64,000 nucleotides of DNA, taken from Hamiltosporidium tvaerminnensis (Eukaryota > Microsporidia > Dubosqiidae). Numbering within the stretch: the first letter of the stretch is position 1; each line of letters opens with the position of its first letter. The notes below the pieces were generated by a model that saw only the letters and a program-made list of their open reading frames with translations, did not search any database and was not told where the DNA came from. Shown here piece by piece: positions 2,345 through 64,000 of this stretch. The stretch spans positions 558,001 through 622,000 of the forward strand of contig JAKIMF020000007.1 in NCBI GenBank assembly GCA_022605425.2, given 5' to 3'. The position numbers and the translations under genes were made by a program.

Positions 2345-2900
2345 CCAGGGCGGAACATAACAACATCAAATGCTTTCTGCTGGTAATAACTATGTTAAAA
2401 TCATTATTTGTAATTTTTATAAACTATAAACCATATTACATTTTTGGCTCTTCTATTGGGATTTATAAAAGGAGAAGATAGTCCTACAAAATAGAAAACT
2501 TTTTCTACAACTTAGCTTGTTAATTTTTATGTAACTAGATTACAAACACCTATGAATATGTGTGTAATTGTCATGTAAAATCACTGAAACCTAGTCTTGC
2601 TCTTTGGTAGAAGATATAGCCTAAGAGATAAGAAAAAAACAAAGCTTTAAAAAAACCAGGAATGTTAACTAACACTTTATACCTATTGGTGTGACTTCAC
2701 AATGTCTAGCTAGATCCTATCTGAGTCACAGGGCTTTTCTTAGCCTGAGGTCTATTATTTAAGGAAAATTACTGAGAAATCAAAAGGGCTTTTTGTCTAG
2801 TAAATCCTGTAATATTTTAAGATCTACGACACACCTTCGTTGACAAATAAACCTTAATCTAGAAATATTTCGCCAATTAAATGATCATTACATACTTTTT
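2345..2900 (+). repeat. element A, decayed copy
   Basis: Degenerate copy of the 720-bp element A. Shared landmarks in order are a CTTTCTGCTGG head, AAAACTTTTTCTACAA, a TTTTTATGTAACTAGAT block, an AAATCACTGAAACCTAGTC block and a TATACCTATTGGTGTGAC block. The 3' third is not recognisable. Confidence 0.65.
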
Positions 2901-3850
2901 AGAGAAAAACCTAGGAGAAGGAGGCATTTAAAGATACAAACAGTATAATGTGGTAGTTTTCTATGTTTAACCAATAAGTGTGTTAATTTCATACAAAAAT
3001 ATTGAAGATATATTTATAAATGATTTAAATTTAACAAATAAAATTTGAATTCTATTTGTTTTGCTTTTAAGACAAAAGTATTTATATTGGTCATTATAGT
3101 TTTTCGAAATCCAGAATATTTTTGCCGTAAAATAATCATATATTATATCTTTTGAATTAAAACTATAAATTATAAATTTATTGTTCTCATTTGTTGATTT
3201 CGATTTATCTGGAATATTTTTTTTTCAATAACATTGTAAGAGTTTAGTTTTATTTTCTTGAGATGCGTACAATAGTAAGAATATAAATTATGAAGTTGAT
3301 CTTGTAAGAACGCATGTTAGTTAAAAAAGTTTAATAAAGTTTTCTCTGTAATAGCCATTCTAGTATTTTTATATCATACGTAAATATTCGAATGTATTGA
3401 TTTTATTAGTATTGCTTAATAGAAAAATTTTAAGGAAACAATGATTTAAAATGTAAATTTGATAACTCAGAACATGATCACATATAAAGAATAAGCTTAG
3501 GCTAACTTTTCAAACAATTGTAAAAAAATAAAAGTAATTTTATTATAACATCTTATTTAATAAGCTTGGAAGAGACATAGAAGACGTATAAATGTCTACA
3601 TTCCTCATTGAAATTTTATTATTTATAAGTTATTTTTGTGACCAATTTGTATTTTATAGTCAAGATTATCGTAATACTGAGTAAAAATAGTTGTAATACG
3701 AACTTATATCTTTATAAAAATAACAGAATGATTATTGAGAAATTTGAAAAGAAATGAAAGAATGCGGAATTTTCTAAGAATTTAAAAAAAGCGATTCTAG
3801 AAAATTCTAATTTTTGAAGCGAATAAATTATTTGATGGAATGTATATTAG
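2901..3850. other. AT-rich spacer, nothing recognised
   Basis: No open reading frame with a convincing product, RNA gene or repeat seen. Confidence 0.5.
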
Positions 3851-6172
3851 ATGCCCCTGATGCGCTTACTAAATTTAATTCTTTGTACAAATTCAAGTTG
3901 GAAACATAAATATAGTTTACTTCGAATATTAATAGTATTTCCAAGTATGATCGCGGTAACGAATGTCATATTTTTATTCACAGAAGAAGATCATGATTTT
4001 GATTCGTTAAAAGTGAATTCATGGACTAATGAAAACTGTTCCGTTGGTAAAAAAACATGAAAAAGATTCTATGGAAGAAAAGCAAAACAAAAAATTTAAC
4101 CCAAAAGAGAGTTATAATATATTTGTTGTTGAGAACATAGAAAAATATCCAATAATATTTAAAAGAATCACAGAAAAGATAGACAAAACACAATCAGATA
4201 TAGTTATTGTGTTAAAAAATACAAAATATTCCGAGTTTAAAATTTTTGACAATTTTCTGAAAACTTGCTATTTGCCTCAAGAAACGTTTTCGATAAATCA
4301 TTTTGGTTTGATTTTATATTTTTTAGAATCATTAAAGGTTGTATTCAATATCAATTTTACGAAAATAATCAATTGTCTCTTTTACAATTTAAATATATTT
4401 TGTAAAAATGAAATGAATATTCAAATGAAGTTTTGGATTGATTTTTTGGTTTCAAACGAAGATTCTTTGGATTTTTTTAATATGGTTTTTGACATTTATC
4501 TCGCTTATTTCGGTATCAATAATGCTTATATTTTAAATGATTATATAAATTTTGAAAGTTATTTATCGTTCGAAACATACGATTTTCTTTTGACAAATAA
4601 AAAATATCGAATATTAAAAATCGACGAGACATTTTTAAATATAATATTAGCTAGGGAGATCGACAATTTTTTTATTACAGTTTTCCTTGCATTATTTAAT
4701 GCTGAAGTAATATTTATAGAGAATTATAATTTATTGGATACAAAGGCTTTAGATAAATGCTTATTTATGATTACTAATAGTGTTAACACGATCGTATTTT
4801 ATGATATTTCTATAGAAGATAGTGTTATTAGCTTCATAAATAGCAATAATATTTTTAAAAAGATAACCAATCTATACTTTTATTGCTATAGTTTCACTGA
4901 AATAACTGATGTTTTAAATAAATCGCTTGGTATAAAAAAGGTTTTTTTGGTTGATTGGTTGGAGAATCAAAACTTACAATACCTTTCTTCCGAATCATCA
5001 GAATCTATAGACAAGCTAAAGCTTTTAATAAATGAAAAATCATTGAATATTTGAATTATCGAAAAGAATTTTTCCGAGGATTCCGAGTTAAAATCCCCAG
5101 AATATTATCTCATTGAAAATTTTAATCAAAATAAGCATGTTTTGCTACAAAAAGATAAAATGTCAAAAATTAAAGTACTAGCAAGATTTGATTTTAAATA
5201 TTCTTACTGCAGCTGCTTCGGATTTTTAACAGATAAAAATGAAGTTAAATATTTATCTATCGAATATAGAATGCAAAAATCGAAAACTTATGTACCTTAA
5301 AAAATCATGTCATTATGAATTAAAATCATTAAAAATATTCCAATCTGAGGTAACTTTTGAAGATTTGATAAATATAGTAGATTTTCCGTGTATAAAAGAA
5401 CTGGAGTTAAATGAGGTAGAAATTATTCAGATAATTGAAAACTTTGAAATAAGATAAAAACAACCAGTCTCTACTAAATTTAAAAATAATTGCACCAAAA
5501 ATTTCCATGAAAACTAAAATCTATGATTTTATACATTGTTTCAATAAGTTAGAAAGTTTGAATTTATATTTAGATGAAGATTTAATTGGATAAGAAAAAT
5601 GTTCTACTGTTTTATTTAGAAGTGCTAAGGATCTAAATCTTCTAACCTTTGTATGTACTAAGGTTACAATTATGGCTATAACTGAGCTATCTTATTTCAA
5701 GAATACAAAAAAAAATAGAATTCCGAGAAATAAAACGTGAAAGTTTCTTTTCGGGTCTTTTTTTAAATCATGAACTTTTACGACTAGCTACTTTGATTTT
5801 TAAGAGCTTGATTTTTATGAAACTGATAGATTTTGCTTTAATTTTATGCATTTAGAAAACATATAATTTGAAAAATGTAAATTTAAAGATATTGAATTCA
5901 ATCAACTATTTTACAGAGTGAAAGAATATAATATAAAGTCTATTTCTCCGATAGACTGCAGTTTAACTGATATAGATATAATTTTTATTTTTGAATTGAA
6001 AAGTTTAACGTTTTTCAATATATATGGATTTTATTTAAAAAATAGTAGTATTTTAAGATTCAAAAGAAATAATTTTTTAGCTCTTAAATTATTCAATATT
6101 TCTTTAAGTTGTGATAAAAAATTAAATTCTAACCTCGCAATTTTAAATGAAGAGTTTAGTTCGATACTTTAG
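3851..6172 (+). pseudogene. decayed BTB-like/LRR family gene
   Basis: This resembles the intact LRR gene at 8760 in layout. A short N-terminal ORF (3851-4060) carries a hydrophobic segment (IVFPSMIAVTNVIFLF) and then an acidic stretch. After a frameshift in an A-run near 4050, a 341-codon ORF (4029-5054) continues with a BTB-like helical core. Reading through its TGA stays open to about 5299. LRR-like pieces follow in other frames at 5239-5457 (ELKSLKIFQSEVTFEDL) and 5918-6172 (IFELKSLTFFNIYGF). At least three breaks are visible, so it is unlikely to make a full product. The family role is unknown; microsporidian LRR proteins of this kind are usually thought to be secreted or surface exposed. 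The 341-codon ORF could still be expressed alone. BTB-like is a judgement from pattern, not a search result. Confidence 0.6.
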
Positions 6173-18240: not shown

Positions 18241-20578
18241 TTATATCCAATAATACCTTCTTATACCACGAATATAATTTTCAAGCACAAATCCCAATTC
18301 AAAAAAATACTTTTGCAAATTCTCAGAAAGATCATTTACCTCCGATTCATAATTATTAGTAATTTTCACTCTTATTTTACTTTCTTCAAAATCCGAAGCA
18401 GTGAAGCACAACATATCATCACCGAAAACACAATCGTCAAATGTAATTTGCTTTATGTTTTTAAGGAAAGTAAACACTCGAAATCGATCCTATTGATAAA
18501 AAATCTTTACAAACTATATTTTCAGGTATAATTTCATTTTTAAAGTTTGAAAAATCCAAAACACTCGGAAAAAAACTTATTGAGTGATTCTTAACAACCA
18601 AAGATTTGAAATTTTTTAGATTTTCAATCTAAAATTTTTCTGTGGATTCTTTTGTCAAATCAATTAATACGAGTTTCTCTGTGACTTACAAGAATCACTA
18701 GAAACAATCCTGTTTGCAAAAGCAAAATCAACGGTTGAAAAAATCAACAATTCCTCAGTTCTCCGTCGATGCTTCTAAGACATATTTCGCCATTAAAATT
18801 TTTATCGAAATTATTAAATATTTTCATAAAATCATTTTTAAAAATATGGTTTTCTATTTCCTCTATGAACGCCGTATAAATCTTAAAATTTATCAATATA
18901 TTTGTATTACACGAAAGAATATCTAAAATATTTAAAAACATCCCATTGTGCTCAAATTTATTATCAGTTAAATCAATATATGTTATAGCAGTTTCTCTGA
19001 TGTTTTTCAAGAGCTCACCATTAAATTGCAAACAATTATATTTCTCGTTTAAGGTTTTAAGATATGGCAATTAATGGCAACAATCAAGAATTTTCTCGGA
19101 AACTATTGACCGATGTATTTCTAAACATACAATTTTAAGACTTTTAGGAATGAATATAACTAATTCTCTTCTTTTACATTCACAAAATTAATACTTATCT
19201 CGATATTCTTAAATAAATTTTCTAAAGAATTAACAATGTCATCGGCTAAAACATATTTCTCAAGACAACAGATTTTTAAACTTTCAATATCATTTTGAAA
19301 CCTTAAAAAGTAAGGATGCGCGCAATCACTATAATCATAAAAATTATTGTTAAAATTTATCACTTCCGATGAAATAATTTTATTTACTTTCAGCTTCGAT
19401 GCTTGAATTCGTATTTTAGTATCCCACTTTTTGCAATATAAATGAATAAGTTGACAAATTGACAGATAATTAATGAAACAATATTCCATATTACTCGTAA
19501 AAACGAACTCTTATCCTCTTTGTAAACTACATTCAACAAAAGTAATTTTTTTTAGATTTGGAAATTGATCTCGATCTTCTAAAAGAGTAAGTTGATCTAG
19601 ATTATAGCCAGCATTTATAGAAGTAATTTCTTCAATAGAATGACTTATGAATTCAAAGAACGGAATCTCGGTGAAATTCTGTAAAATATAAGTATGTATG
19701 ATAACTTTTCGTATTTTTAGTATTCGAAAAAATACTCCAGAGATATTTTCCAAGAAAGTATTACCAACTATTCGTAGTATTTTACTAATTGGATCCGAAC
19801 ATGAAATATATAGAGATTCGGTAATACTTTCTTGGAAAATCTTTCGATGTTTTTGCAAAGTATCATCATAACTTATATCTTGTAAAAAAAGTCTTCTGTA
19901 TATTTCCTCTGCATTATATATTTTTAAAAAAACCTTGATATTATACTTCTTTAGATTTTGACTAATCTGATTTATTTTTTGGTTCGAAATAAAATCAAAA
20001 TTTAAATATATATCAATCAGGTCTTCCTTACATATTGAATAAATTAAGAACGTTTTTACCAATTTATAAAAATTTAAGTTGTAAATTGGTTCAACAAAAT
20101 CAATTATTCATAAAATGTCAATGAAATTTTCAAGTGTTAGTCCTACCTAATTAAAACCATGTTTACCTTGCAAAAAACCATAAAAAATTTTCCATTCGGC
20201 ATATTTAATATCTCCCATGTCTAGAAATCTCTGATTCTCCGATAATTCTATTGATTTCTCGATTTTTCGAAAAGTTGAAACCAAATTCAAAGTATTTTTA
20301 TTTATATAACCTATATCGGAAAATTCAGAACTGTGATACCGAGATATATATGTTGTACTATTAAAATATTCTCTGGATAGTGCAAAGCCTGATAGGTCAA
20401 GTTGAAAAAAATCATTCATATTCTCGGAAGTAGACATTTCATCCTTTTTAAAACAAAGATAAAGATCGGAAGTTGGTGGTACCATAGAACCATAGATTAG
20501 TGTAGATCTATATATCTTATAAAATATATATAGAATAGCGAAAAGATTGCTTGGTATTCTCATTATTATTAGATTCAT
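18241..20578 (-). pseudogene. BTB-like/LRR pseudogene, copy 1 of an inverted pair
   Basis: It reads from ATG at 20578 leftwards to a TAA at 18241. The N-terminus (MRIPSNLFAILYIFY) is hydrophobic and signal-like, followed by a BTB-like block (ending YAEWKIFYGFLQGKHGFN) and then LRR-like sequence. It is broken into open pieces at 20578-20147, 20062-19511, 19489-19160, 19070-18744 and 18477-18241. At 20147 a TAG stands where copy 2 has GAG, and a TGA follows soon after where copy 2 has TAT. Copy 2 lies at 53644-55945 in the opposite orientation and is about 90-97% identical by eye, except for 19274-19488. The breaks differ between the copies, so the ancestor was probably intact when it duplicated. 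Protein function is unknown. Confidence 0.8.
19274..19488 (-). other. divergent cassette inside LRR pseudogene copy 1
   Basis: Sequence on both sides is almost identical to copy 2, but this segment is not. The boundaries are abrupt: shared ATATGGAATATT on one side and shared TTTAAAAATCTGTTGTCTTG on the other. The encoded residues keep only scattered matches (for example HPYF and FQ-DI). Confidence 0.75.
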
Positions 20579-21594
20579 TTTTAAGAGATTTGGGGAAAAT
20601 GTTAATGAGTAGATAAATTAAATCTAAAATAGTTAATTTTTTTAATTTAAAGAAAAAATATCAATTGTGACAAGATTAAATGGATCAAAATCACGTAAAA
20701 CTTTGATCAAATAGATGAAAAAAAATATAAATGTCAAAAAAATCAAAGGTTTACTTTATCAAAAACATACAAAATTTTAGTAAAATAAATTCTACACAAT
20801 AAACGAATAATTTCTGATTCACTACATAAATTAACTTACTATGTTTTATTATAATTATGTATATATAAATTATAATATGATGCTAATATTTACATTCAGT
20901 GCTTAACGGTATATTAATTTTAATTTTTAGTATGTATTATATTGACTAGTTTTAGGAATTATATTGCAATTCGGATCACTAATAGCATTATTATGTAAAT
21001 AAGTGCTCGAATTAACAATTTTATTGAATAGGCATGGTGTTGCAATTATTTACATTAAGAAGTAAATAATTATTGACAAATGTTTGAATCACATGTCAAA
21101 ATCATCTAAAACCAGGTATTCGAACCACTAGAGTAATCAGTATTCGACAAAGTTTTTTAAACTAATATAAATTATTTGTTTCAATTTCATTAAATACTGA
21201 TATATTGTATTTCGAAAAATGATGCATTAGATTTATGAAAAAAACCAAATTCTTTTACTCACAAGTCTCTTTGTATTATTCTTTGAATAAACATGGTAGA
21301 TATTACATTGATACGATTATATTGGCTTACTTTGTAATACAACGAAAACTATGAAAAGAAAACATATACACTATCAAAAAAAATTCCCATAAATTTAATT
21401 TTGAAAACAGATTATATTTTCCTAAAAAAATGGATTTGATATCTATGGTAAGAGAAAATGGCTGTTATTCCCTCCCCCCATATTTACGTAATTATACAGA
21501 ATGAAACATCTTAGAATGCCTATCATAACCAAGTTTATTTTAGATATTTTTTAAATGCTAGGAATATTTTATTTAATAAAATTCTTGGGTAACA
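20579..21594. other. AT-rich spacer
   Basis: The first 50 bases or so still match the region just upstream of copy 2 (CTCATTAAC before the start codon). No other feature was recognised. Confidence 0.5.
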
Positions 21595-22040: not shown

Positions 22041-22434
22041 AAGATTCATAGACCTAAATTTATTAAAAATTAACAGATGACGAAATACCAAGATAAAAAG
22101 TAAATCATATGAATTCATAAACCTAATAAATGCAAAAAGCCTTTGAAATGAAGAAAACTGTATTAGGTGGATTACAAAAGACATTCATTCAAATTTTCAT
22201 GCACCCAAGCGAAAAAATATATTCGGTCGGGATGCAAAGCGGGCGCTGATTATTCCAAAGATAAATGATATGAATACTTCATAAGATTCGGCACTTGCCC
22301 TAGGCTTAATATAAGAAAATATTAAACAATATCTAATTAGCGAACCGATATTTATATTAGATATAGCAAATCTTATATATTCAATTAGAAAAAAACAAAT
22401 AATTCTATATAAACGCGTTAGGGTGTAGGGAGAA
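22041..22434. other. AT-rich spacer, nothing recognised
   Basis: Short stretch between a LINE fragment and an A element; no gene seen. Confidence 0.45.
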
Positions 22435-23075
22435 TAACAACATAAAAAAACATTTGCTTGGGACGGAATAAGTGAAATTGGTGTGGAAGATTATTGTTTG
22501 CATTTTTAGTGGGAATGAAAATACACTAGATTTTCGGCTGTTCCATGAAAGTTTGTAGAAGAAGAACGAGTTCAACGAAATGACGAAATCTTTTCTAAAT
22601 ATATTTTGATGTTTTTTTTAACTAGATCGCAGTTTGCAGGTGAAATTTGGAAATCGCCATGTAAAAGCACAGAAACCTGGTCTTTCTCATCCATTTAGAC
22701 AACATAGCGTCCAAGATAGAAAAATATAAACCATCAATGCTGGAAAACCTAGGTTGAAAAATATTACCTTTTGGTATGGCTTTGCAAATTCCGGTTTATT
22801 CATGTAAGATGCCAAAATAAATCTTATGTAGAAGTTTATTAAGATCAGAAAGTGTTGAATAAGCAGGTATGATGCATAGTTTTGCAGGTGTCCAAGATGG
22901 ATTCGACCTACGATAACACGCTATGCAACTGGTATAAACGAACTTCGGGAAATATCTTCGCTTATTAATTGAGTTATATCCACCTTTTAGATGAAATTAT
23001 TAGAGATCTAGGCTGCGTCGTAAAAGGCACCTATGGGATGTTGGGGAGAAGTATTTTTTGTAAAACTTGAACAGC
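22435..23075 (+). repeat. element A, moderately decayed copy
   Basis: Nearly the whole element can be followed. Landmarks are GGGAGAATAACAACATAAAA (head), AAATTGGTGTGGAAGATTAT, CTAGATTTTCGGCTGTTCCA, ATGTAAAAGCACAGAAACCT, ATAAACGAACTTCGGG, TATTAATTGAGTTATATCCA and GGGATGTTGGGG. Its 77-codon reading frame seen at 38768-39001 is not kept open here. Confidence 0.75.
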
Positions 23076-26000
23076 TTTAATATTACAAAAAAAATAAAAA
23101 CTCGCAACTATTTCAAATAGATGTTAGATTTTTAAATCAAACCTCTAAATAATCGTTAGAAAGAGCGATTAGAATAACTATCGATCAAAATAGAGATATG
23201 TAATTATATTAGTTTACAAAAAATACAAGTCAAGTATAAAAATATGCCAGCGTATATAATAGTAAAGATTAGGTTTAAATCGCAAGCATTTATATTTTTC
23301 TTTAATTTCCTGAAATAAAATTTTAGCTGGTATAAATATTTTTTGTTCAATTTTAAGTTAATACTTAAGCTTAGTCAAAAGTCAAAATCTTTAATATTAT
23401 AATTAAAATAGTGAACATTACAATATATTCAGCACTTTTCTATAAAGAAAGTATCATATATAGCGTTTAGAACAGAGCAAAGGTACTAAGAATATGGACC
23501 ATGAGTTGTATTTTTTTCGGCAGTGCAAATTCTATACTATCTCGCGGCTGGTCTTTTTCCCGGACATTATTATTCAGTACACTCTGATATAAGTTATCTT
23601 GTGAGTATTTGGCTCCTTCTCATGTATGTTGTTCTCGTATATAGTTCTTTTCTGTATTGTAAAGTAAGGAATTTCCTTTTTTCGTTGGGAAATATTTGCA
23701 ATTATCAAAAAACTACTCTAAATTCTATGATGAGTAAAAAATATGCTTTTTGATTTAATTTTTTTATTCAAAATTTGAGTAGGTGCAGGCGTCTTAACAC
23801 AGAAATAAGGCAATTTTTTGTATGTAAAGTAATAATGTAGAACAACTTAGCTTTCCCATGCCTTTCCGATTCGAAATTTCATATTTTCGCTCTATCTCTA
23901 AATTGAAAAAAAACATCCTTGTAACAGCTATTGTCAGGTTTAAGAAAAGGGAAATGCGAAACTTGAAAATTTAAATAGATTCATAAAACAGAGTTTTTTG
24001 CTTTTCTTTAAAAAAATAACCTAGAAAAACATTTCATTGAGTTTGATAGATCCTGAAAACAGCGAAACAGCTCTATATGGTTACATCAAATATCAACTCC
24101 TACTAAAATTTTCTTCTACATTTGAGTAAATTTCATTGCGAGCAGAGTTTTTTTCAAGAACTTCGCAATGAGATATAGACCATTAAGTTTCCTTCTATTC
24201 AAACGAAACGTATTATCTTACCATGGTAAAATTCTGTAAAATACTTTCTATAAGTTTCTTCGAAGTATTTACGTATTATGCCGGTGTTTAATTTAAACAA
24301 AAAGGGAATTTTTTCGAAATGAATGTCTTTTACGACAGTTATTCGTAAAGATGAAACTAGGCTTCTGTCTTAATAGGCGATCAAACATCGTTGTTTTAAA
24401 AATTTTCTATAGCGCGAAAGATTTTTCGCTCAATAAAGCTTTTCTTTTTACTAATTTGGGATCTGAGAGTTCTTAAGAAAATAAACAAAGTTGCTGCTTT
24501 TAGACTTAATGTACAAAAAAATGTCAATAGTTGAGATTCTGGCTTTTTTTGAGTTACAGAGTACTTTATTTTATAGTCAAGTTTGATTCCAAGAAGTATG
24601 GACAAAAATTTGGCATATTTTTGTTGCTTAACTATAATATATCATACGGAATATTTAGCATTCGATAACAAAGGGAACAACTTTTTTATTCAGAATATTA
24701 AATTCATAATTCAACGCAATCAAGATCTCATCGGGCTTTAAAATGACGTATTTGCAAAGAACTTTAATAGCCAGTCAAAACCAAAATCAGCAAAAACCCT
24801 TTTTAAGATGCAATTCTGACATAATTATTTTATCAAAATCTGTCCGAAACACATCAAGACTGATTTACAAGAAATATTCACAGATCAAGATAAATACAAC
24901 TTAAATAAGCTGTTAGTGCAGAATTCCTCAAATCAAAAGAATGATCTCAAAAAAAGGTCAGAAACTCTGCGAAGGATAAAACCCAAGACTACTATAATAT
25001 CAAAAAAAAAATAGGATATAAACTTTATGACATATTGGAAAATTTCGAGACTTCAGATTCTGATGATATGCGAATTTGATGAACAAACCAAGTCTGAATA
25101 TCCAGAGAAGAAAAAAAACTCACAATGGTTCATGGGAATAATATTAGATAGGTTTCTTATTAGCTTTTCTAAAAATTTAAAAGACTAAGTAAATCTAGAT
25201 AAGATTTAGCATGCCATCTTCGATAGAACAGGTACTACAGTTTTCGAATTCCTCTGTTTAAGCAGTCAGTTTCAAATGACTTTCATCATCACATGCAAGA
25301 ATGCAGCCGGCAAACACTAAAACACAACGTATCTAATACGTGCCCTTAGAAATTCTGTTAAATCCGACCTTTCAAGCTAAAGCCAGCGAAATACTACCGC
25401 GGTACATTTTTAAGTCATTTCATAAATTTTTAATGCCAAAAAAAAGATTTTAATGTTTAAATTGTTATAGACACTGTAAATCAGATAATATTTAACCAAC
25501 AAATGATAATTATAACTTCCAATATGGTTCATTTTCTTTATTTTACCTAGAAATATAGAATATGGGTGGAATGGTAGCCATGTGGTTTTTTGAGTTTAAG
25601 AAAGTACAAAAATAATAAAAATGTATTTAAAATTTGTAAATAGCTTAATATGCTTAAAGAAAAAAATTTCCCATTTCGTGGTAATTTAAGGAACCAACTC
25701 ATTTATCAACTAAAGTTACTGATATTAACGAATTTTAGTCATATAAAACACTTTTTATGAATTTCCTAGATTAAATCTTCCATATTTCTCATAAAAAGGC
25801 CGATTTACAAAAAAAATCTATCCAATAAATTTGATTTCAAAGGCAATATTACGCATTAAGATTTTTGTTTTCAAAATTTTTATTCCTAAGTCAGAATGCT
25901 ACATCTTTTGTATCACCACTTACTCATTAAACTTTTATGTATATTAGAAACAGAATTTCTAGATTATTTTATTCTTCCAACTCTTTTCGGTAATAAAACG

Positions 26001-26541: not shown

Positions 26542-28605
26542 CTAAACCTCTTTAATATTCTTAATAACCATTTTTATATCCTCAATAGAGTCCAGATTAC
26601 CGCACGCAGTAATATCACCTAAGCACTCACCATTCAAAAGACATTTCAAAACTCTTCGCATAATTTTACCCGTTCTTGTTTTAGGAAGTTCATTACAAAT
26701 AATTACATGTCTTACATTACACAGTGTACCGATCGTATTTCTAACAGTCTTCTTCACACATTCTTTTATCTTCTCACAAATACTATAATCATATTTCACT
26801 ACAAATGCTACTATGCACTGTCCTGTAAGTTCATCGTTCATAGGTACTACTGCTGCTTCTACTACACCTTCACTACTACATACAACACTTTCAATCTGCA
26901 TCGTACTTAGTCTATGTCCACTCACATTCATCACATCATCTGCTCGCCCCACTATATGATAATATCCTTTGGAATCCATATAACACTCATCACCAGTATA
27001 ATAATAACCAGGATATTTTGTATAATATTTTAAATATCTAGAATGGTCATTTAATATTGTAAAAGCCATAGAAGGAAATCTACCTTTAAGTAATAATAAA
27101 CCTATTTCACCAACACCAGCTCTAACGAAAATTTCTTTGTCTTCGTTGAGATTTTGGTTGAGAGTTTTACTTTCTTGTTTTTCAGATTCCTGTCTTTCAA
27201 TTTCAGAAAAAATTCTTTTTTCGTCTCTAATTTCGAATTCATTAAAATTTTCATTTTCTTCAACTTTTTTTGCTATAAAAGGTTCCACACCGTAAAAGGG
27301 AACACCAACACATTCTGGTCCACAATCTACGCCATTTTCAGGTGCAAGTATGACAGAACCCTGTTTCTGTCTGCCAATATGTATCAATAATAGGCAATTT
27401 ATCGCTGCCAAATATATTCTTGAACCAATGCATACGCTTCTTTATTTAAAGGTTCTCCCATACATGCTATACCTTTCAATCTACTCATATTATAGGCATT
27501 TTTACCCACCAAATCTTCTTTTTTCACGACTTTTTGTAGCATTCGAACAACAGTAGGTGCAGTAGAATAATGAGTAACTTTACATTTATCAATAATTTTA
27601 AGCATAATGAAATTATCTGGAAATAAAGGCATCCCTCCGAATATAACAGTGCATCCACCTACCAATAAGGGTCCATACAAAGTAAGAGAATGAGCAGCTG
27701 CCCATCCCAAATCAGCCGTACAGAAAAATACATCGCTTCTTCCAAAACAAAACACGTCAGAAACCGACAACGCAGATCCCAACAAGTATCCCGCAGTTGA
27801 ATGTGCTATACCTTTCGGTTTACCTGTAGAACCACTTGTATACAAGTAAAACAACGGATGCGTCGAATCCACAGAAACGCACGGCACATTATCACCTGCA
27901 AGATCTATATCATAAAATTTATCCACCTTCGTTTCACCCACACACGATTCCACGATATCTTCGCACTGATCATAAATCAGAATGCGTTCAACTTTTATAT
28001 TTCTTACCAATTTTACTGCATTTTTTACATTTTCAAAATAATTAATAGAATTCTTCCCTCTTCTTCCCCTCATCACAGTAACAACAATTTTACTCTTCGT
28101 TTCTTCTAATTCTCATCGCCAAACTATCTACACTAAATCCACCAAACACCACATTATGAGGTATTCCTAATCTAGCACATCCTAGCATCGCAAATACCGT
28201 CTCGGGCATATTGGGCATATAAATAGTTATCGCATCCATCTTCGTAATATCTACCACCGACATAATATATTCACAGTATTTATTGATTTCCTTTTTAAGT
28301 GAATTATATGTATAGCTTAAGTATTTGCACCCTCATTGCTTACATATACCAATGCCTTCTTATCTCCATATTTTAAACAGTGTCTATCCACACAATTATA
28401 ACATGCATTTATTTTACCACCCACAAACCATCCATCTTTGTTGTAAACACTGTCATATTTCTTATCAAATGTCAAATATTTTGTAGCTGATAAGTCAAAA
28501 AAAATCATCTGTATTTCTTATACTCATTATATATTTACTTTTAAAATCTAATGGCATTTCATCAGGGTAAAATAACATTCTTAAGCAATCTCTTTCCACC
28601 CTCAT
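26542..28605 (-). pseudogene. acs: acetyl-CoA synthetase with five frameshifts
   Basis: This family makes acetyl-CoA from acetate, ATP and CoA. All family landmarks are present in order on the minus strand: WFVGGKINACYNCVDRH (28420), NVVFGGFSVDSLAMRI (28120), the ATP-binding loop YTSGSTGKPKGIAHST (27820), WQTETG (27375), YYTGDE (27000), and the catalytic lysine motif KTRTGKIMRR near the C-terminus (26660). The reading frame changes five times, each by one base: in a run of 8 T near 28500, near 28318, near 28094, near 27417 and in GGG near 27363. Net length from the ATG at 28605 is about 687 residues, close to the normal 650-670, and no key residue is lost. Either the gene died recently or the assembly has homopolymer errors. 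An ATG at 28795 opens a repetitive 77-codon frame that I do not think belongs to the enzyme. Confidence 0.9.
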
Positions 28606-30020: not shown

Positions 30021-31089
30021 TTGAAGGATTAAAAATACAGTGTTTTAAAAGCGGTAGAATTGATCGATATAAAGGAATATATTTTAAAAGCTGTTTTAAG
30101 ATTTGATTGAAGATGCTCTATAATTGTTAAAAATGGTTATATTGGTTATTTAAAATATTTTTAATGGTAAAAACAGAATATTTGGCGGGAAATATAAAAA
30201 AATATAGAAAACTAGGAAATAGAAATGTAGGAACTATTTTTTAATGTGTAATGAATATGTTAAACAATTTGTTAACAAGAAATGGCTATTCAAATAATTT
30301 TTTATTATGAAAGTTATATTTAAATTTAATTTTTACAGAATATTTAATATATTTAATTATCTACTATATAACTACTTAAGAATAAAATACAAAATATTTG
30401 TTTATAAATATCTGAAGTGATGAATTCTTTCAAATTACATAATTACAAAGGAAAAATACAGCGTTTTATCAAAATGGTGTTCAATTTTTATGTTCTGTAA
30501 TGATTTAAAAAGAGTAAATTTTATATAAATTGCTTAACTACCTTATAAGGAAATATAAAAATTAAAAAGTGGGAAATTAAATCGTATTTTTTTCTGTTGG
30601 TTTATAAGAAATATAATAATTTGAAACGAAAAAAGTAAAATTTATTTTTAAAGTTTTTTTACAACTAAAAAGGGAAAAATAGAGGAATAAAAAATGTATT
30701 TTTTATTCGTTAGTTTTTAATGAAGAGAAATAATATAGGAATATAAAAGGAAGGAAGTCAATTATACATATGGAAATCAACATTTATATTTAATAAAATC
30801 CTATTTAAATATAAAGAGAGGATTGCCTAGATTTTCTGGAAATCAGCTAAGTTTGAAGTACGTCTCTAACAAGGAGATCGTCTTGCTGCTCACCGTTCCT
30901 TTGTTATTATAAAATGGATTGTTTTCATAAAATAAATAATTGTCTTTATTGGTTTTATTCATCTTGGCACACCTTTTCTTTATTTTAAAATATAAAATAA
31001 AAATATTATATCTTTGTGATATAAATATATCACAAGGATTTCAATGCTAAAACTTTCTGCTTAGAAATAAATGTGTCAAATTGGTGGTA
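30021..31089. other. AT-rich spacer with a small GC-richer block
   Basis: No gene seen. About 30833-30905 is less AT-rich and contains a possible imperfect hairpin (ACGTCTC and GAGATCGT). It does not fit a tRNA or any spliceosomal RNA I recognise. Confidence 0.4.
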
Positions 31090-31590
31090 AATATTTTTTT
31101 CGGTTTTAGGTGGACAAAAAAGCTCACCACATTTTCGCATATTCCTAGGATTTTGATATGAAAAAGAATGTGAACAAGTAGTATAACCTTTTTTCACAGA
31201 CTTAGATAATGGTTTTTAATGTAATTAGATTCTGATCGTTGCCGAAAATGTTAGGTATTGCCATGCAAAAGCATCGAGACCAGTGCTTACTCACCTCGGT
31301 TTGAAGACCTTGCGTTTGGAAGATAAAACAACTATTATTTAGAAACCCAGAAAGCTAAGGAGCAGCTTATATTTGTTGGTGTGACATTGTAATGTTTAGG
31401 CAAATCTCATAAAAATGCGAGTCTATATTTTAGAGAGAATATACTCGGAGCTTTAAGTTCAGAGAAAGTGGGAGTGCTGCTGTATGTGGGGTTTCTCTAG
31501 GCAAACTTAAACTTGCAATTAAACTGATTGAAACGAACAGTAAGGCCCTCGATGTATTTGTTCCGCAAAATTTAATGAGTTCTTCTCAAC
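31090..31590 (+). repeat. element A, decayed copy
   Basis: Shared blocks in order: GCCATGCAAAAGCATCGAGA, CTTACTCACCTCGG, AGAAAGCTAAGGAGCAGC, TTGTTGGTGTGACATTG, AGTTCAGAGAAAGTGGGAGT and GAAACGAACAG. The head and the last part are poorly preserved. Confidence 0.6.
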
Positions 31591-38226: not shown

Positions 38227-38330
38227 AAAAGTCTTTGATTTAAATAAGTTCTGTTGAATATTTTCTAACTTAAAATCTCTAGGTTTCAATATTTTTGAAT
38301 AAAAAATTTTTGTTTTCAATTTTTATTTAA

Positions 38331-39046
38331 AAGTATCACATCTTTTTTAAAAAGTGGCAAGTGTTATATTTTTTTCATGACATTAACGCAGTTCTAGGTT
38401 TAACATAAATGACTGCTACCCAACACCCCATCGGTAACCCCTGCGATACCTACGTCCCAAAGCCTTTCATCTACCAGGTGTGTAGAACCTAATTAATAGG
38501 CGAGGCAGTTGCCCGGAGTTCGTTAATGTCCGTTGCATGGAGTGTGATCGAAGGCCGAAGCCCCCCCTGGGCTCCCCCAAGACTATGCAGCATTCCCACT
38601 TACTCTACACTTTCTGAACCCAATAAACTTCTAGCTAAGATATATTTCAGAGACTTACATGGGGTCTACCTAGACAGTGCAATGTCATACCAACAGGTAT
38701 AACCTGCTACTTAGCTCTCCCGGCTTTTAATGGTTTTGATTTTTATATATCGCAGGCGCTAAGTCTTCTAACCCGAGTGAGCAAGGCTAGGTTTCCATGC
38801 TTTTACATGGCAATTACCTACATGTTCAGCTGCGGTCTGCAATCTGGTAACATAAAAAACTATAAATAAATTTGTAGAAAAAGTTTCTCCATTTCTTAGA
38901 CCTCTCCCCTTCATAACAACTCCCATGGAACAACCAAAGATGTAGTGTGGTTTTATTCCCACCAAAAATCCAAACAATGACCTCACACCAGTTTCACACA
39001 CTCATTGCCAAGCAGAAAGTTTTTTGTGTGGTTATCCTCCCTCCAC
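38331..39046 (-). repeat. element A, well preserved copy
   Basis: On the minus strand it runs from GGAGGATAACCAC near 39046 to GATGTGATACTT at 38331, about 716 bp. By eye it is about 97% identical to the copy at 63616 and slightly less to the one at 52862. It is much richer in G and C than its surroundings. A 77-codon frame (39001-38768) is open here but not in the other copies, so I treat the element as non-coding. It has no inverted ends. Confidence 0.85.
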
Positions 39047-52861: not shown

Positions 52862-53583
52862 GTGGAGGAAGGATAACCACATAAAAAACTTTCTGCTTGG
52901 CAATGAGTGTGTGAAACTGGTGTGAAGATCATTTTTTGGATTTTTGGTGGGAATAAAACCATACTAGATTTTCGGTTGTTCCATGGGAGTTGTTATGAAG
53001 AGGAGAGGTCTAAGAAATGGAGAAACTTTTTCTACAAATTTATTTGTAGTTTTTTATGTAACCAGAGTGCAGACCGCAGCTGAACATGTAGATAATTGCC
53101 AGGTAAATCATAGAAACCTAGCCTTTCTCACCGGGAATAGAAGACTTAGCCCCTGGGAGATATAAAAATCAAAACCATTAAAAGCCGGGAGAGCTAAGTA
53201 GCAGGTTATACCTGTTGGTATGACATTGCACTGTTTAGGTAGACCCCATGTAAATCTCTGAAATAAATCTTAGCTAGAAGTTTATGGGGTTCAGAAAGTG
53301 TAGAGTAAGTGGGAATGCTGCATAGTCTTGGGGGAGCCCAGGGGGGGGGGCTTCGGCCTTCGATCACACTCCATGCAACGGACATAAACGAACTCCGGGC
53401 AACTGCCTCGCCTATTAATTAGGTTCTACACACCTGGTAGATGAAAGGCTTTGGAACGTAGGTATCGCAGGGATTACCGATGGAGTGTTGGGGTATCAGT
53501 TATTTATGTTAAACCTAGAACTACGTTAATGTCATAAAAACGAATATAACATCTTGCCACTGTTTTAAAAAGATGTGATACTT
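52862..53583 (+). repeat. element A, well preserved copy
   Basis: Full-length copy of about 722 bp, from GTGGAGGAAGGATAACCACA to AGATGTGATACTT. It carries a run of 10 G in the GC-rich centre (about 53341-53350), where the other good copies have 7 C on the opposite strand. Its end lies 60 bp before the start codon of LRR pseudogene copy 2. The matching place upstream of copy 1 has no element A, so this insertion may be younger than the duplication. Confidence 0.85.
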
Positions 53584-53643
53584 TGTAATAGAGTAAAAAT
53601 TTAATTAATATACTCATTAACAATTTTCCAAAATCCCTTAAAA

Positions 53644-55945
53644 ATGAATCTAATAATAATGAGAATACCAAGCAATCTTTTCGCTATTCTATATCTATTT
53701 TATAAGATATATAGATCCAAACTAATCTATGGTTCTATGGTACCACCAACTTCCAATATTTATCTTTGTTTTAAAAAGGATGAAATGTCTACTTCCGAGA
53801 ATATGAATGATTTGTTTCAACTTGACCTATCAGGCTTTGCACTATCCAGAGAATATTTTAATAGTCCAACATATATATCTCGGTATCACAGTTCTGAATT
53901 TTCCGATATAGGTTATATAAATAAAAATACTTTGAATTTGGTTTCAACTTTTCGAAAAATCGAGAAATCAATAGAATTATCGGAGAATCAGAGATTTCTA
54001 AACAAGAGAGATATTAAATATGCCAAATGGAAAATTTTTATGGTTTTTTGCAAGGTAAACATAGTTTTAATGAGGTAGGACTAACATTGGAAAATTTCAT
54101 TGACATTTTATATATAATTGATTTCCTTGAACCAATTTACAACTTAAATTTTTATAAATTGGTACAAACGTTCTTAATTAATTCAATATGTAAGGAAGAC
54201 CTGATTGATATATATTTAAACTTTGGTTTTAGTTCGAACCAAAAAATAAATCAGATTAGTCAAAATCTAAAGAAGTATATTATCAAGGTTTTTTTAAAAA
54301 TATATAATGCAGAGGAATATACAGAAGACTTTTTTCACAAGATATAAGTTATGATGATACTTTGCAAAAACATCGAAAGATTTTCCAAGAAAGTATTACC
54401 GAATCTCTATATATTTCATGTTCGGATCCAATTAATAAAATACTACGAATAGTTGGTAATACTTTCTTGGAAAATATCTCTCGAGTATTTTTTCGAATAC
54501 TAAAAATACGAAAAGTTATCATACATACTTATATTTTACAGAATTTCACCGAGATTCCGTTCTTTGAATTCATAAGTCATTCTATTGAAGAAATTACTTC
54601 TATAAATGCTGGCTATAATCTACATCAACTTACTCTTTTAGAAATCGAGATCAATTTCCAAATCTAAAAAAAAATATTTTTGTTTGATTGTAGTTTACAA
54701 AGAGGAGAAGAGTTTGTTTTTGCAAGCAATATGGAATATTCTTTTAAGAATTTATACTTCATTCAAGCTTTTGTTGGTTTTGATAGGTGGAAAATATATT
54801 CTCAACTACAAATTAAAGCTTCCAATATGAAATATAGCGGGTATTTATCGCCAAAAATTCTAAATTTCGCTAGGAATTTTCAAAATGGCGGTAAGCATTT
54901 ACATCCTTATTTTTCGGAGTTTCAAACCGATATTATAAATTTAAAAATCTGTTGTCTTGAAAAATATGTTTTAGCCGATCACATTGTTAATTCTTTAGAA
55001 AATTTATTTAAGAATATCGAGATAAGTATTGATTTTGTGAATGTAAAAGAAGAGAATATAGCTATTTTCATTCCTAAAAGTCTTAAAATTGTATGTTTAG
55101 AAATACATCGGTCAATAGTTTCCGAGAAAATTCTTGATTGTTGCCTACAATTGCCATATCTTAAAACATTAAACTTGAAATATAATTGTTTGCAATTTAA
55201 TGGTGGGCTCTTGAAAAACATCAGAGAAACTGCGGTAACATATATTGATTAAACTGATAATAAACTTGAGAACAATGGGATGTTTTTAAATATTTTAGAT
55301 ATTCTTTCGAGTAATACAAATATATTGATAAATTTTAAGATTGATACGGCGTTCATAGAGGAAATAGAAAACCATATTTTTAAAAATGATTTTATGAAAA
55401 TATTTAATAATTTCGGTAAAAATTTTAATGGCGGAATATGTCTTAGAAGCATCGACGGATGAAGTTAGGGAATTGTTGATTTTTTCAACCGTTGATTTTG
55501 CTTTTCCAAACAGGATTATTTCTAGCGATTCTTGTAAGTCGCTAGAGAAACGCGAGTAGTTAGTTTGAAAAAAGAATCTACAGAAAAATTATTGATTGAA
55601 AATCTAAAAAATTTCAAATCTTTGGTTGTAAGAATCACTCAATAAGTTTTTTTCAGAGTGTTTTGGATTTTTCAACATTAAAAAGGAAATTATACCTGAA
55701 AATATAGTTTGTATAGATTTTTATATCAATAGGATCGATTCTAGAGTGTTTACTTTCCCTGAAAAAACATAAAGCAAATTACATTTGACGATTGCTGTAT
55801 TCAGTGATGATATGTTGCTCTTCACTGCTTCTGATTTTGAAGAAAGTAAAATAAGAGTGACAAATTATTAGTGATTATGATTCGGAGGTAAATGATCTTT
55901 CTGAGCATCTGCAAAATTATTTTCGAAGAGTTGTGATTTGTAGTC
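53644..55945 (+). pseudogene. BTB-like/LRR pseudogene, copy 2 of an inverted pair
   Basis: It starts with the same ATG and hydrophobic N-terminus as copy 1 (MRIPSNLFAILYLFYKIYRS). Open pieces are 53644-54078, 54027-54347, 54362-54667, 54680-55252 and 55280-55462, in shifting frames. The BTB-like block runs to about codon 175 and LRR-like sequence follows (LPYLKTLNLKYNCLQF). Copy 1 has a 183-codon stretch open where this copy is broken, and this copy has a 190-codon stretch open where copy 1 is broken. Similarity to copy 1 fades after about 55945, so the original C-terminus is missing or replaced here. A CCC motif (AATCCCTTAAAA then ATG) stands before the start; copy 1 has CTCT instead. Confidence 0.8.
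54731..54946 (+). other. divergent cassette inside LRR pseudogene copy 2
   Basis: Counterpart of 19274-19488 (minus). It is still open here, whereas most of its neighbours are not. It encodes FVGFDRWKIYSQLQIKASN and onward, which shares little with copy 1, while both flanks are nearly identical in the two copies. Confidence 0.75.
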
Positions 55946-59182: not shown

Positions 59183-59890
59183 TAAAAGAATACCCGCATT
59201 AAAGCCTTTTGCTTATTAATGTGTATGTGAAATAGGTGTGAAAATCATTTTTTGCATGTTTGGTATAAAGAAAACTACAGTATATTTTCGGTGCTTTTCT
59301 GGGATGATAATATAATTAGGAAAGGTATACAAAATGATGAAACTTTTTCTAGAAAGAATGTTTATAATTTTTATGTAACTAGATTAAAGCCTACCTGCCG
59401 TAATGATAAATGATTGACATTAAAACCTAGGAAGTCCTGGCTTTTCTCAATTTAGTTGGAGACTTGGAGCCCGGGCATTTAAGAATAAAACTCTTTAAAG
59501 CTAGGAAAGCAAAGTAGCAGGATATTTATTGGTGTGTCGTTTCGGCATCTAGGTGGACCATATTTAAGGCATAGAGATATACCTTGGCTTGGTGTTCATT
59601 TGGTTCAGAAATTGTAAAGAAATATAAATACAGTGGTCCTGGGTAGCTAAATGTCGATTTTGGCGAGCGATCACACTTCAAACAGCGGATATAAACGAAC
59701 TCAAATTAATGCCATCTATCGATTAGCTTCTACATAATTTTAGATGAAAGGCTTTGGGATGTAGGTATCTGAAGGGATACCGATGTAGTGTTGAAGAAAA
59801 TGTTATCGATGTTAAACCCAAAATGATGAAAACAATAAAAAACGCGTCACTTTTATGAAAAGATATGAAATTCAATATATAGAAATGTTT
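59183..59890 (+). repeat. element A, moderately decayed copy
   Basis: Followable over nearly its whole length: AATACCCGCATTAAAG head, GTGAAATAGGTGTGAAAATC, CTTTTTCTAGAAAG, AAAGCTAGGAAAGCAAAGTA, ATAAACGAACTC, AGATGAAAGGCTTTGGGATG and GATACCGATGTAGTGTTG. The GC-rich centre is eroded. Confidence 0.75.
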
Positions 59891-63248: not shown

Positions 63249-63615
63249 AATTAAAGAGTTTTAGAGTTAGAATGAAGGTGGTATTAAAGAATTATTATTT
63301 GTATGTAGAAAACCAATAGCAAATAAATAAAAATAAATTTCTTTAAAAATTCTCTACAAAATAGAAAATAACTTATCTATGATATTTTATTCAATTCATT
63401 TACTTAAAAAAATGCTCTTAAAAAATAAAAAATAACTTATCTAAAAAATATAAATAATAAAAATAAATTTCTTAAAAAAAATGCTCCAAAAAATAAAAAA
63501 TAACTTATCTAAGATATAAAATATAAATAATAAAAATAAAAATAAATTCCTTTAAAAAAATACTTCCAAAAAATAAAAACTACTAATCTAAAAAAGAAAG
63601 AAGTACTTTATTTAA
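63249..63615. repeat. imperfect AT-rich tandem repeat
   Basis: From about 63320 to 63600, three to four imperfect units of about 70-85 bp share TAAAAATAAATTTCTT, AAAAATGCTC and AAAAATAACTTATCTA. No gene is present. Confidence 0.6.
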
Positions 63616-64000
63616 AAGTATCACATCTTTTTTAAAACAGTGGCAAGTGTTATATTTGTTTTCATGACATTAACGCAGTTCTAGGTTTAACATAAATAAC
63701 TGCTACCCCAAAACTCCATCAGTAACCCCTGCGATACCTACGTCCCAAAGCCTTTCATCTACCAGGTGTGTAGAACCTAATTAATAGGCGAGGCAGTTGC
63801 CCGGAGTTCGTTAATGTCCGTTGCATGGAGTGTGATCGAAGGCCGAAGCCCCCCCTGGGCTCCCCCAAGACTATGCAGCATTCCCACTTACTCTACACTT
63901 TCTGAACCCAATAAACTTCTAGCTAAGATATATTTCAGAGGATTACATGGGGTCCACCTAGATAGTGCAATGTCATACCAACAGGTATAACCTGCTACTT
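63616..64000 (-). repeat. element A, well preserved, cut by the window end
   Basis: It matches 38331-38717 with about ten differences, including the GC-rich centre (GCCGAAGCCCCCCCTGGGC) and the AGGCGAGGCAGTTGCCCGG block. It continues past the end of the window. Confidence 0.85.

Follow-up and report, generated by a model that had tools for sequence, protein, structure and literature searches.

How can two copies of one gene in the microsporidian Hamiltosporidium tvaerminnensis, a parasite of Daphnia, be nearly identical over most of their length and yet differ deeply in one short block? Both copies lie in a stretch of 64,000 nucleotides that was analysed as a whole (the window, C15:558001-622000, with a GC content of 27.2%). 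The searched genome comprises 21,638,905 bases in 17 contigs, and the published assembly of this species is described with 21.64 Mb, 17 contigs and 26.60% GC (PMC10542269). A database protein under the same species name, P0001, corresponds to one encoded in this genome. A sequence-only reading of the window had attributed the block to a swap with a divergent paralogue. The analyses presented here trace how much of that proposal holds, and which other histories might leave the same pattern.

Two Inverted Copies of a Broken Gene

Copy 2 of the gene extends from 53599 to 55941 on the plus strand, its frame is broken, and it is near-identical to copy 1 save for the block. Copy 1 (18287-20623, minus strand) is inverted relative to copy 2 and situated about 35 kb away. 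A BLAST comparison of the window with itself aligns the two at 91.3% identity across 2359 columns, and a genome-wide DNA search found them as the sole two copies. Stops or frame breaks are present outside the block in copy 1 and in copy 2. If the block is set aside, identity amounts to 94.6%, the earlier estimate by eye being about 90-97%. Ahead of the block, the copy-2 stretches 53641-54000, 54001-54300, and 54301-54660 are 98.1%, 94.0%, and 98.9% identical to copy 1, and behind it the corresponding values for 55051-55450, 55451-55600, and 55601-55930 are 95.5%, 81.8%, and 92.9%.

Likelihood change-points place the block at 54741-54939 in copy 2 (plus strand, within the open frame 54680-55252) and at 19281-19479 in copy 1 (minus strand, within the open frame 19160-19489), so that the limits proposed beforehand (54731-54946 and 19274-19488) were correct to within about 10 bases. 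Inside these limits 92 of 199 positions differ and no gap is needed; the change-point statistic (2LLR) is 227.7, as compared with at most 18.2 in 10 shuffles. When the copies were aligned with MAFFT and their identity was profiled in windows of 30 columns, the flanks mostly gave 27-30 matches, the core of the block 12-21, and its right end climbing values of 23-26. The sliding-window check that the sequence-only reading had called for thus reveals an abrupt step and not a gradual loss of identity. Its statement that both flanks change abruptly applies fully to the right border. Identity is 55.8% for 54741-54948 and 97.1% over the first 102 columns (54949-55050) of the near-identical block to the right (54949-55935, plus strand). 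The left border, however, is preceded by a transition zone of 80 bases (54661-54740, plus strand) that is 89.9% identical over 79 ungapped columns. A second block marked at 55541-55563 (15 of 23 positions differing), which is contained in the dip at 55451-55600, was rejected; by eye it seems to be a small length difference that had been aligned without a gap.

Both copies also carry an inverted repeat in their coding sequence, about 260 bases ahead of the divergent block. It covers 54375-54480 in copy 2 (plus strand) and 19740-19845 in copy 1, with arms of 26 nt that are 92% complementary and 54 nt between them. The DNA fold of 54366-54500 in copy 2 has a z score of -5.6 against shuffles.

An Older Split Enclosed by Young Flanks

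The two blocks are homologous to each other. Placed side by side without gaps, 118 of 210 bases match (56%), whereas codon shuffles reach a mean of 31.8% and a maximum of 42.9% (n = 500), and 24 of 70 residues match between the two translations. Both blocks have the same length and an open frame. The earlier description of the segments as barely alike is therefore apt with regard to the number of differing positions and misses the homology. That blocks of equal length are homologous and open in frame also argues against a misassembly or a piece of foreign sequence in one of the copies, an explanation to which we give next to no probability. It is true that the genome is repeat-rich and that repeats blocked the full assembly of some chromosomes, but the assembly was built from two kinds of long reads and was polished with Illumina data (PMC10542269).

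Within the block, dS is 0.80-0.90 and dN is 0.63-0.67, whereas the flank stretches show a dS of 0-0.064 and a dN of 0.009-0.043, one stretch being counted in all three frames. Lineages of different age thus meet at the borders, which calls for recombination, and we consider it very likely that recombination of some kind between diverged lineages has taken place. The contention that ordinary decay would not be so local is borne out by the abrupt step and by a block dS far above that of the flanks. Bootstrapping of the block gives a dS of 0.80 (0.45-1.63) and a dN/dS of about 0.78 (0.37-1.47). Among the 24 identical residues, 17 use the same codon, and 13.4 would be expected at saturation, as derived from the codon use of one frame in the window (P = 0.10). 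Judged from these substitutions, the split between the blocks is old and perhaps near saturation.

Could the block instead have changed fast on a recent duplicate, through diversifying selection or a mutation burst confined to it? The range of dN/dS would permit weak constraint or some positive selection. However, synonymous and nonsynonymous change are raised to about the same extent, which selection on the protein does not bring about. In simulations with an equal number of random base changes, the frame was broken in about 99% of runs (it stayed open in 0.9% and 1.1% of 20,000 runs, starting from either copy), and none of the open runs matched the observed protein similarity of the blocks. 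Random change so rarely keeps frame or protein similarity that the blocks must have diverged as translated sequence, and fast local change is a very improbable explanation.

An old polymorphism of the block, of which one allele became fixed in each copy after duplication, seems improbable as well. The species is said to be asexual in the sampled habitat and to display high shared heterozygosity (PMC12376958), conditions under which old alleles could persist. Against this, 46% of positions differing is far above ordinary allelic divergence, and neither type of block occurs among the database proteins reached by our searches, which were limited by protein length.

Search for a Donor

If the block had been swapped in from a paralogue, its donor might still be encoded elsewhere in the genome, and the sequence-only reading had expected each cassette inside another paralogue. 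Searches of the whole assembly with the block DNA (E ≤ 10) matched each block to itself alone. Protein searches of the assembly at the same threshold returned, for each block, itself and the other copy only; since just these two candidates came through the first pass, a donor of very remote similarity may have escaped. Over the 21.64 Mb assembly, then, neither block was recovered in another paralogue at the DNA or protein level. Of the proposed swap, recombination is upheld by the abrupt step and the contrast in dS, and the expected donor was not found.

Protein searches of the assembly with longer pieces detected the two copies and one weak match, and no donor. This extra match, C12:2671163 (L008, E = 0.05), appeared unrelated by eye and was dropped. 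Distant relatives of the subfamily are encoded by L048 on C1 (29% identity, E = 5.8e-6) and by L049 on C3 (29%, E = 0.013). When block plus flank was compared with L048, shuffles did as well in 204 of 300 cases for copy 2 and in 252 of 300 for copy 1. A database search with the copy-2 piece yielded 43 candidates and 0 scored matches among eligible proteins of about 105-332 amino acids, a range in which a full-length relative could be missed. With an alignment of the open pieces, four Hamiltosporidium proteins were reached. One of them, P0003 (765 amino acids, from the same species), is distantly related and shows 28% identity over 170 residues to a copy-1 piece (E = 7e-5); the blocks themselves have no significant alignment with P0003. 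An attempt to polarise the difference against P0003 (shuffles as good in 7 of 300 cases for copy 2 and in 150 of 300 for copy 1) was not used, as the alignments put the larger part of the block beyond the slot.

Proposed Origin of the Block

We tentatively regard the locus as a mosaic that arose when diverged members of a single small gene subfamily recombined, with import into one copy as the likeliest form. The gene would have been duplicated in inverted orientation, and about 200 bases between conserved ends of one copy would then have been overwritten with the corresponding, homologous sequence from a divergent relative, either through non-allelic gene conversion or through template switching. 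Such an overwriting would have kept length and frame, and the donor relative, or its stretch, may since have been lost or may be absent from the assembly. The sequence outside the block agrees with this proposal in one respect, namely that the divergence of the flanks is compatible with a single age. With 54661-54948 and 55445-55570 left out, 295 of 2000 shuffles were equally or more uneven, and such even divergence, as after one duplication, would count for import.

A different history, which we hold to be less likely, starts from two old paralogues. Gene conversion to the left and to the right of the block would recently have homogenised their gene bodies, and the block, too diverged to pair, would have survived as a remnant island. 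With no donor found, import into one copy is inseparable from an old difference between homogenised flanks, and each block being the other's only relative found would suit such a remnant. The 80 bases at 90% to the left of the block are compatible with either form. The evenness of the flanks may speak against the remnant, the unevenness not being significant in the shuffles given above. Conversion would furthermore have had to pair sequences with a likeness of no more than about 55%, unless conservation was already higher in the flanks.

The extent of near-identity favours the homogenised paralogues. In copies 1 and 2 it ends near both ends of the gene, whereas the near-identical pair formed by L053 and a locus in the window extends more than 1 kb into the flank, and the pair on C1, unlike copies 1 and 2, is alike over nearly all of the flank compared. 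Beyond the 3′ end there is a faint signal of divergent homology. Segments 3′ of the near-identity were equalled by 15, 18, 125, 18, and 14 of 2000 random segments at lengths of 50, 60, 80, 100, and 130, respectively. A BLAST match reaches about 95 bases beyond the 3′ border (E = 1.8e-8) but takes in near-identical bases, and a local alignment test restricted to the sequence beyond this border detected nothing (73 of 300). This weak sign would count against import, as two divergent patches would suit two old paralogues better. Beyond the 5′ end no divergent homology was detected (598 to 1582 of 2000 random segments were as good).

The 5′ end proves little for either history. A dispersed repeat of about 730 bp (52862-53595, plus strand) ends 4 bases ahead of the start of homology in copy 2, and the near-identity of another pair, L039/L040, stops likewise. 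As repeats adjoin the 5′ ends of both copy 2 and L039, this end decides nothing. In L039/L040 (C5/C7), near-identity ends at the start of the open frame of L040 (L039 about 4753, L040 about 1472), a different dispersed repeat starts in L039 at that end, and the likeness extends past the 3′ end.

Pairs and Islands Elsewhere in the Genome

A search for the larger LRR-like family gave 71 candidates, of which 50 matches were scored. The scan for similar patterns covered 3 near-identical pairs, 5 diverged pairs, and 190 pairs of open reading frames; the latter came from 20 of 21 sequences, L039 being omitted with a longest frame of 400 amino acids. The three other near-identical LRR-like pairs are L039/L040 (97.0%), L053 with its partner in the window (96.5%), and L048/L050 (98.8%). 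L039 and L040 belong to the larger family, and the pair of L053 is tied only weakly to the subfamily of the two copies (E = 0.115). No comparable block was detected in any of these three pairs, the top 2LLR being 43.9 as compared with 225.7 for copies 1 and 2 in the same scan. In the C1 pair, the remaining half takes in the slot equated by eye with the block; it is 98.6% identical and shows no dip. The block thus stands as a single event among few pairs and no visible habit of the family.

In each of three near-identical LRR-like pairs, the two members are inverted and share a contig at a distance of about 35-40 kb, i.e., 2411-5763 with L053 (C15:520782-524132), 53599-55941 with 18287-20623, and L048/L050 on C1. 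A related gene on C1 (L058, L059, and L060, at about 1472-1479 kb and 1512-1517 kb) forms an inverted pair at 98.5% identity. One of its copies is split by an insert near the slot equivalent by eye to the block, and the overlap of 13 bases at this insert resembles a target-site duplication.

The clearest trace of a comparable process comes from L030/L035 on C9, with open frames of 893 and 901 amino acids. These two are 75% identical overall and contain an island of 83 codons at 96% (786-868 of the L030 frame), within which 71 of 77 shared residues keep their codon, as compared with 342 of 466 outside (Fisher P = 1.5e-4, about 0.03 allowing for 190 pairs). The pair ranks top of the 190 and has the only island of near-identity. 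Codon sharing suggests that this island is probably a gene-conversion tract, and such a tract makes the process plausible in this genome. Milder forms appear in L028/L032 (118 of 156 vs 133 of 244) and in L027/L041 (68 of 91 vs 162 of 276). In many of the 30 top pairs among the frames from L025 to L044, divergence is highest ahead of the repeats, at about residues 65-190, most strongly between L025 and the 919-aa frame of the window (41% vs 64.5% overall, 2LLR 60.8).

The LRR Label and a Possible Function

The gene had been labelled as encoding a leucine-rich repeat (LRR) protein. Neither of the two pieces spanning the block is matched by a Pfam LRR model, and relatives reach sub-threshold scores only, i.e., 17.4 bits for LRR_14 as the best match of P0002 (cut-off 40) and 7.7 bits for LRR_1 in P0003 (cut-off 20.6). 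In a structural model of P0003, strands and helices alternate from about residue 295, at a mean pLDDT of 45.8, which is low confidence. The label is thus hinted at by these matches, while the curated cut-offs are not reached, and "LRR-like" is the wording employed here.

Among the lineage-specific gene families of microsporidia are large ones, in part with LRR domains, that have been described as host-exposed (PMC5423893). The start of the encoded protein is hydrophobic by eye, and by analogy the gene may once have been host-exposed. The suggestion that a swap would be a way to vary one part of a secreted LRR protein finds no backing here, both copies being broken and the other near-identical pairs lacking such a block; with stops or frame breaks in both copies, a present role is not likely. 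We find it decidedly improbable that the block represents a slot in which about 70 residues vary, refilled by recombination with old and divergent types as the remainder of the gene is kept alike. Were this true, recombination would diversify a possibly host-exposed protein, and the donors would reside in other isolates or no longer exist.

Comparison with Known Mosaics

The mosaic is real and of a known kind, similar ones having been published for the wtf genes and the GOT1 paralogues. In the wtf genes of Schizosaccharomyces pombe, divergent segments are shaped by non-allelic gene conversion, and, as at our locus, family genes and pseudogenes mix similar parts with segments of an older split and are adjoined by repeats (PMC11497594). 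For wtf, however, each divergent segment occurs as two clades spread over many genes, and BLASTN was used to look for the donors of recent conversions (PMC11497594), whereas here each block type was found once and its donor was not found. The likeness concerns the pattern, and no kinship in sequence is claimed. GOT1 paralogues contain islands of high divergence within sequences kept alike by gene conversion (PMC3728101), an arrangement that resembles ours and provides a published precedent for a remnant between homogenised flanks. They were studied in several populations with a discussion of selection (PMC3728101), whereas the present case consists of two broken copies in one genome.

Among microsporidia, the LRR families treated in PMC5423893 are likewise lineage-restricted and have a hydrophobic start; the word "recombination" is absent from the main text of that article, and, unlike those families, the members tested here stay below the Pfam LRR cut-offs. 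In Spraguea, LRR and lineage-specific proteins are overrepresented among duplicates with both copies turned into pseudogenes (PMC4948709), and here too both copies of an LRR-like, lineage-specific pair are broken. The Spraguea duplicates, in contrast, stem from a whole-genome duplication, and a mosaic block is not described in the sections of that report available to us. Within the open-licence PMC literature on LRR proteins and gene conversion in Hamiltosporidium and other microsporidia, judged by titles and the opening of abstracts, no such mosaic in this family was found.

For a microsporidian that is said to be asexual in the habitat sampled (PMC12376958), the locus gives plain evidence that diverged family members have recombined. 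One such event, in genes both of which are broken, carries little weight alone; several such mosaics, if found, would show how lineage-specific families diversify or escape decay.

Repeats and Other Features of the Window

Copies of the dispersed repeat that precedes copy 2 are located at 2357-2756, 22423-23141, 31049-31480, 38322-39046, 52862-53595, 59186-59818, and 63604-64000, and the repeat also occurs at the LRR-like loci L028, L042, L049, and L053. A search of the window against Rfam at gathering scores gave no match. An AMP-binding enzyme is encoded at 26542-28076 on the minus strand in two overlapping frames and is probably broken or frame-shifted.
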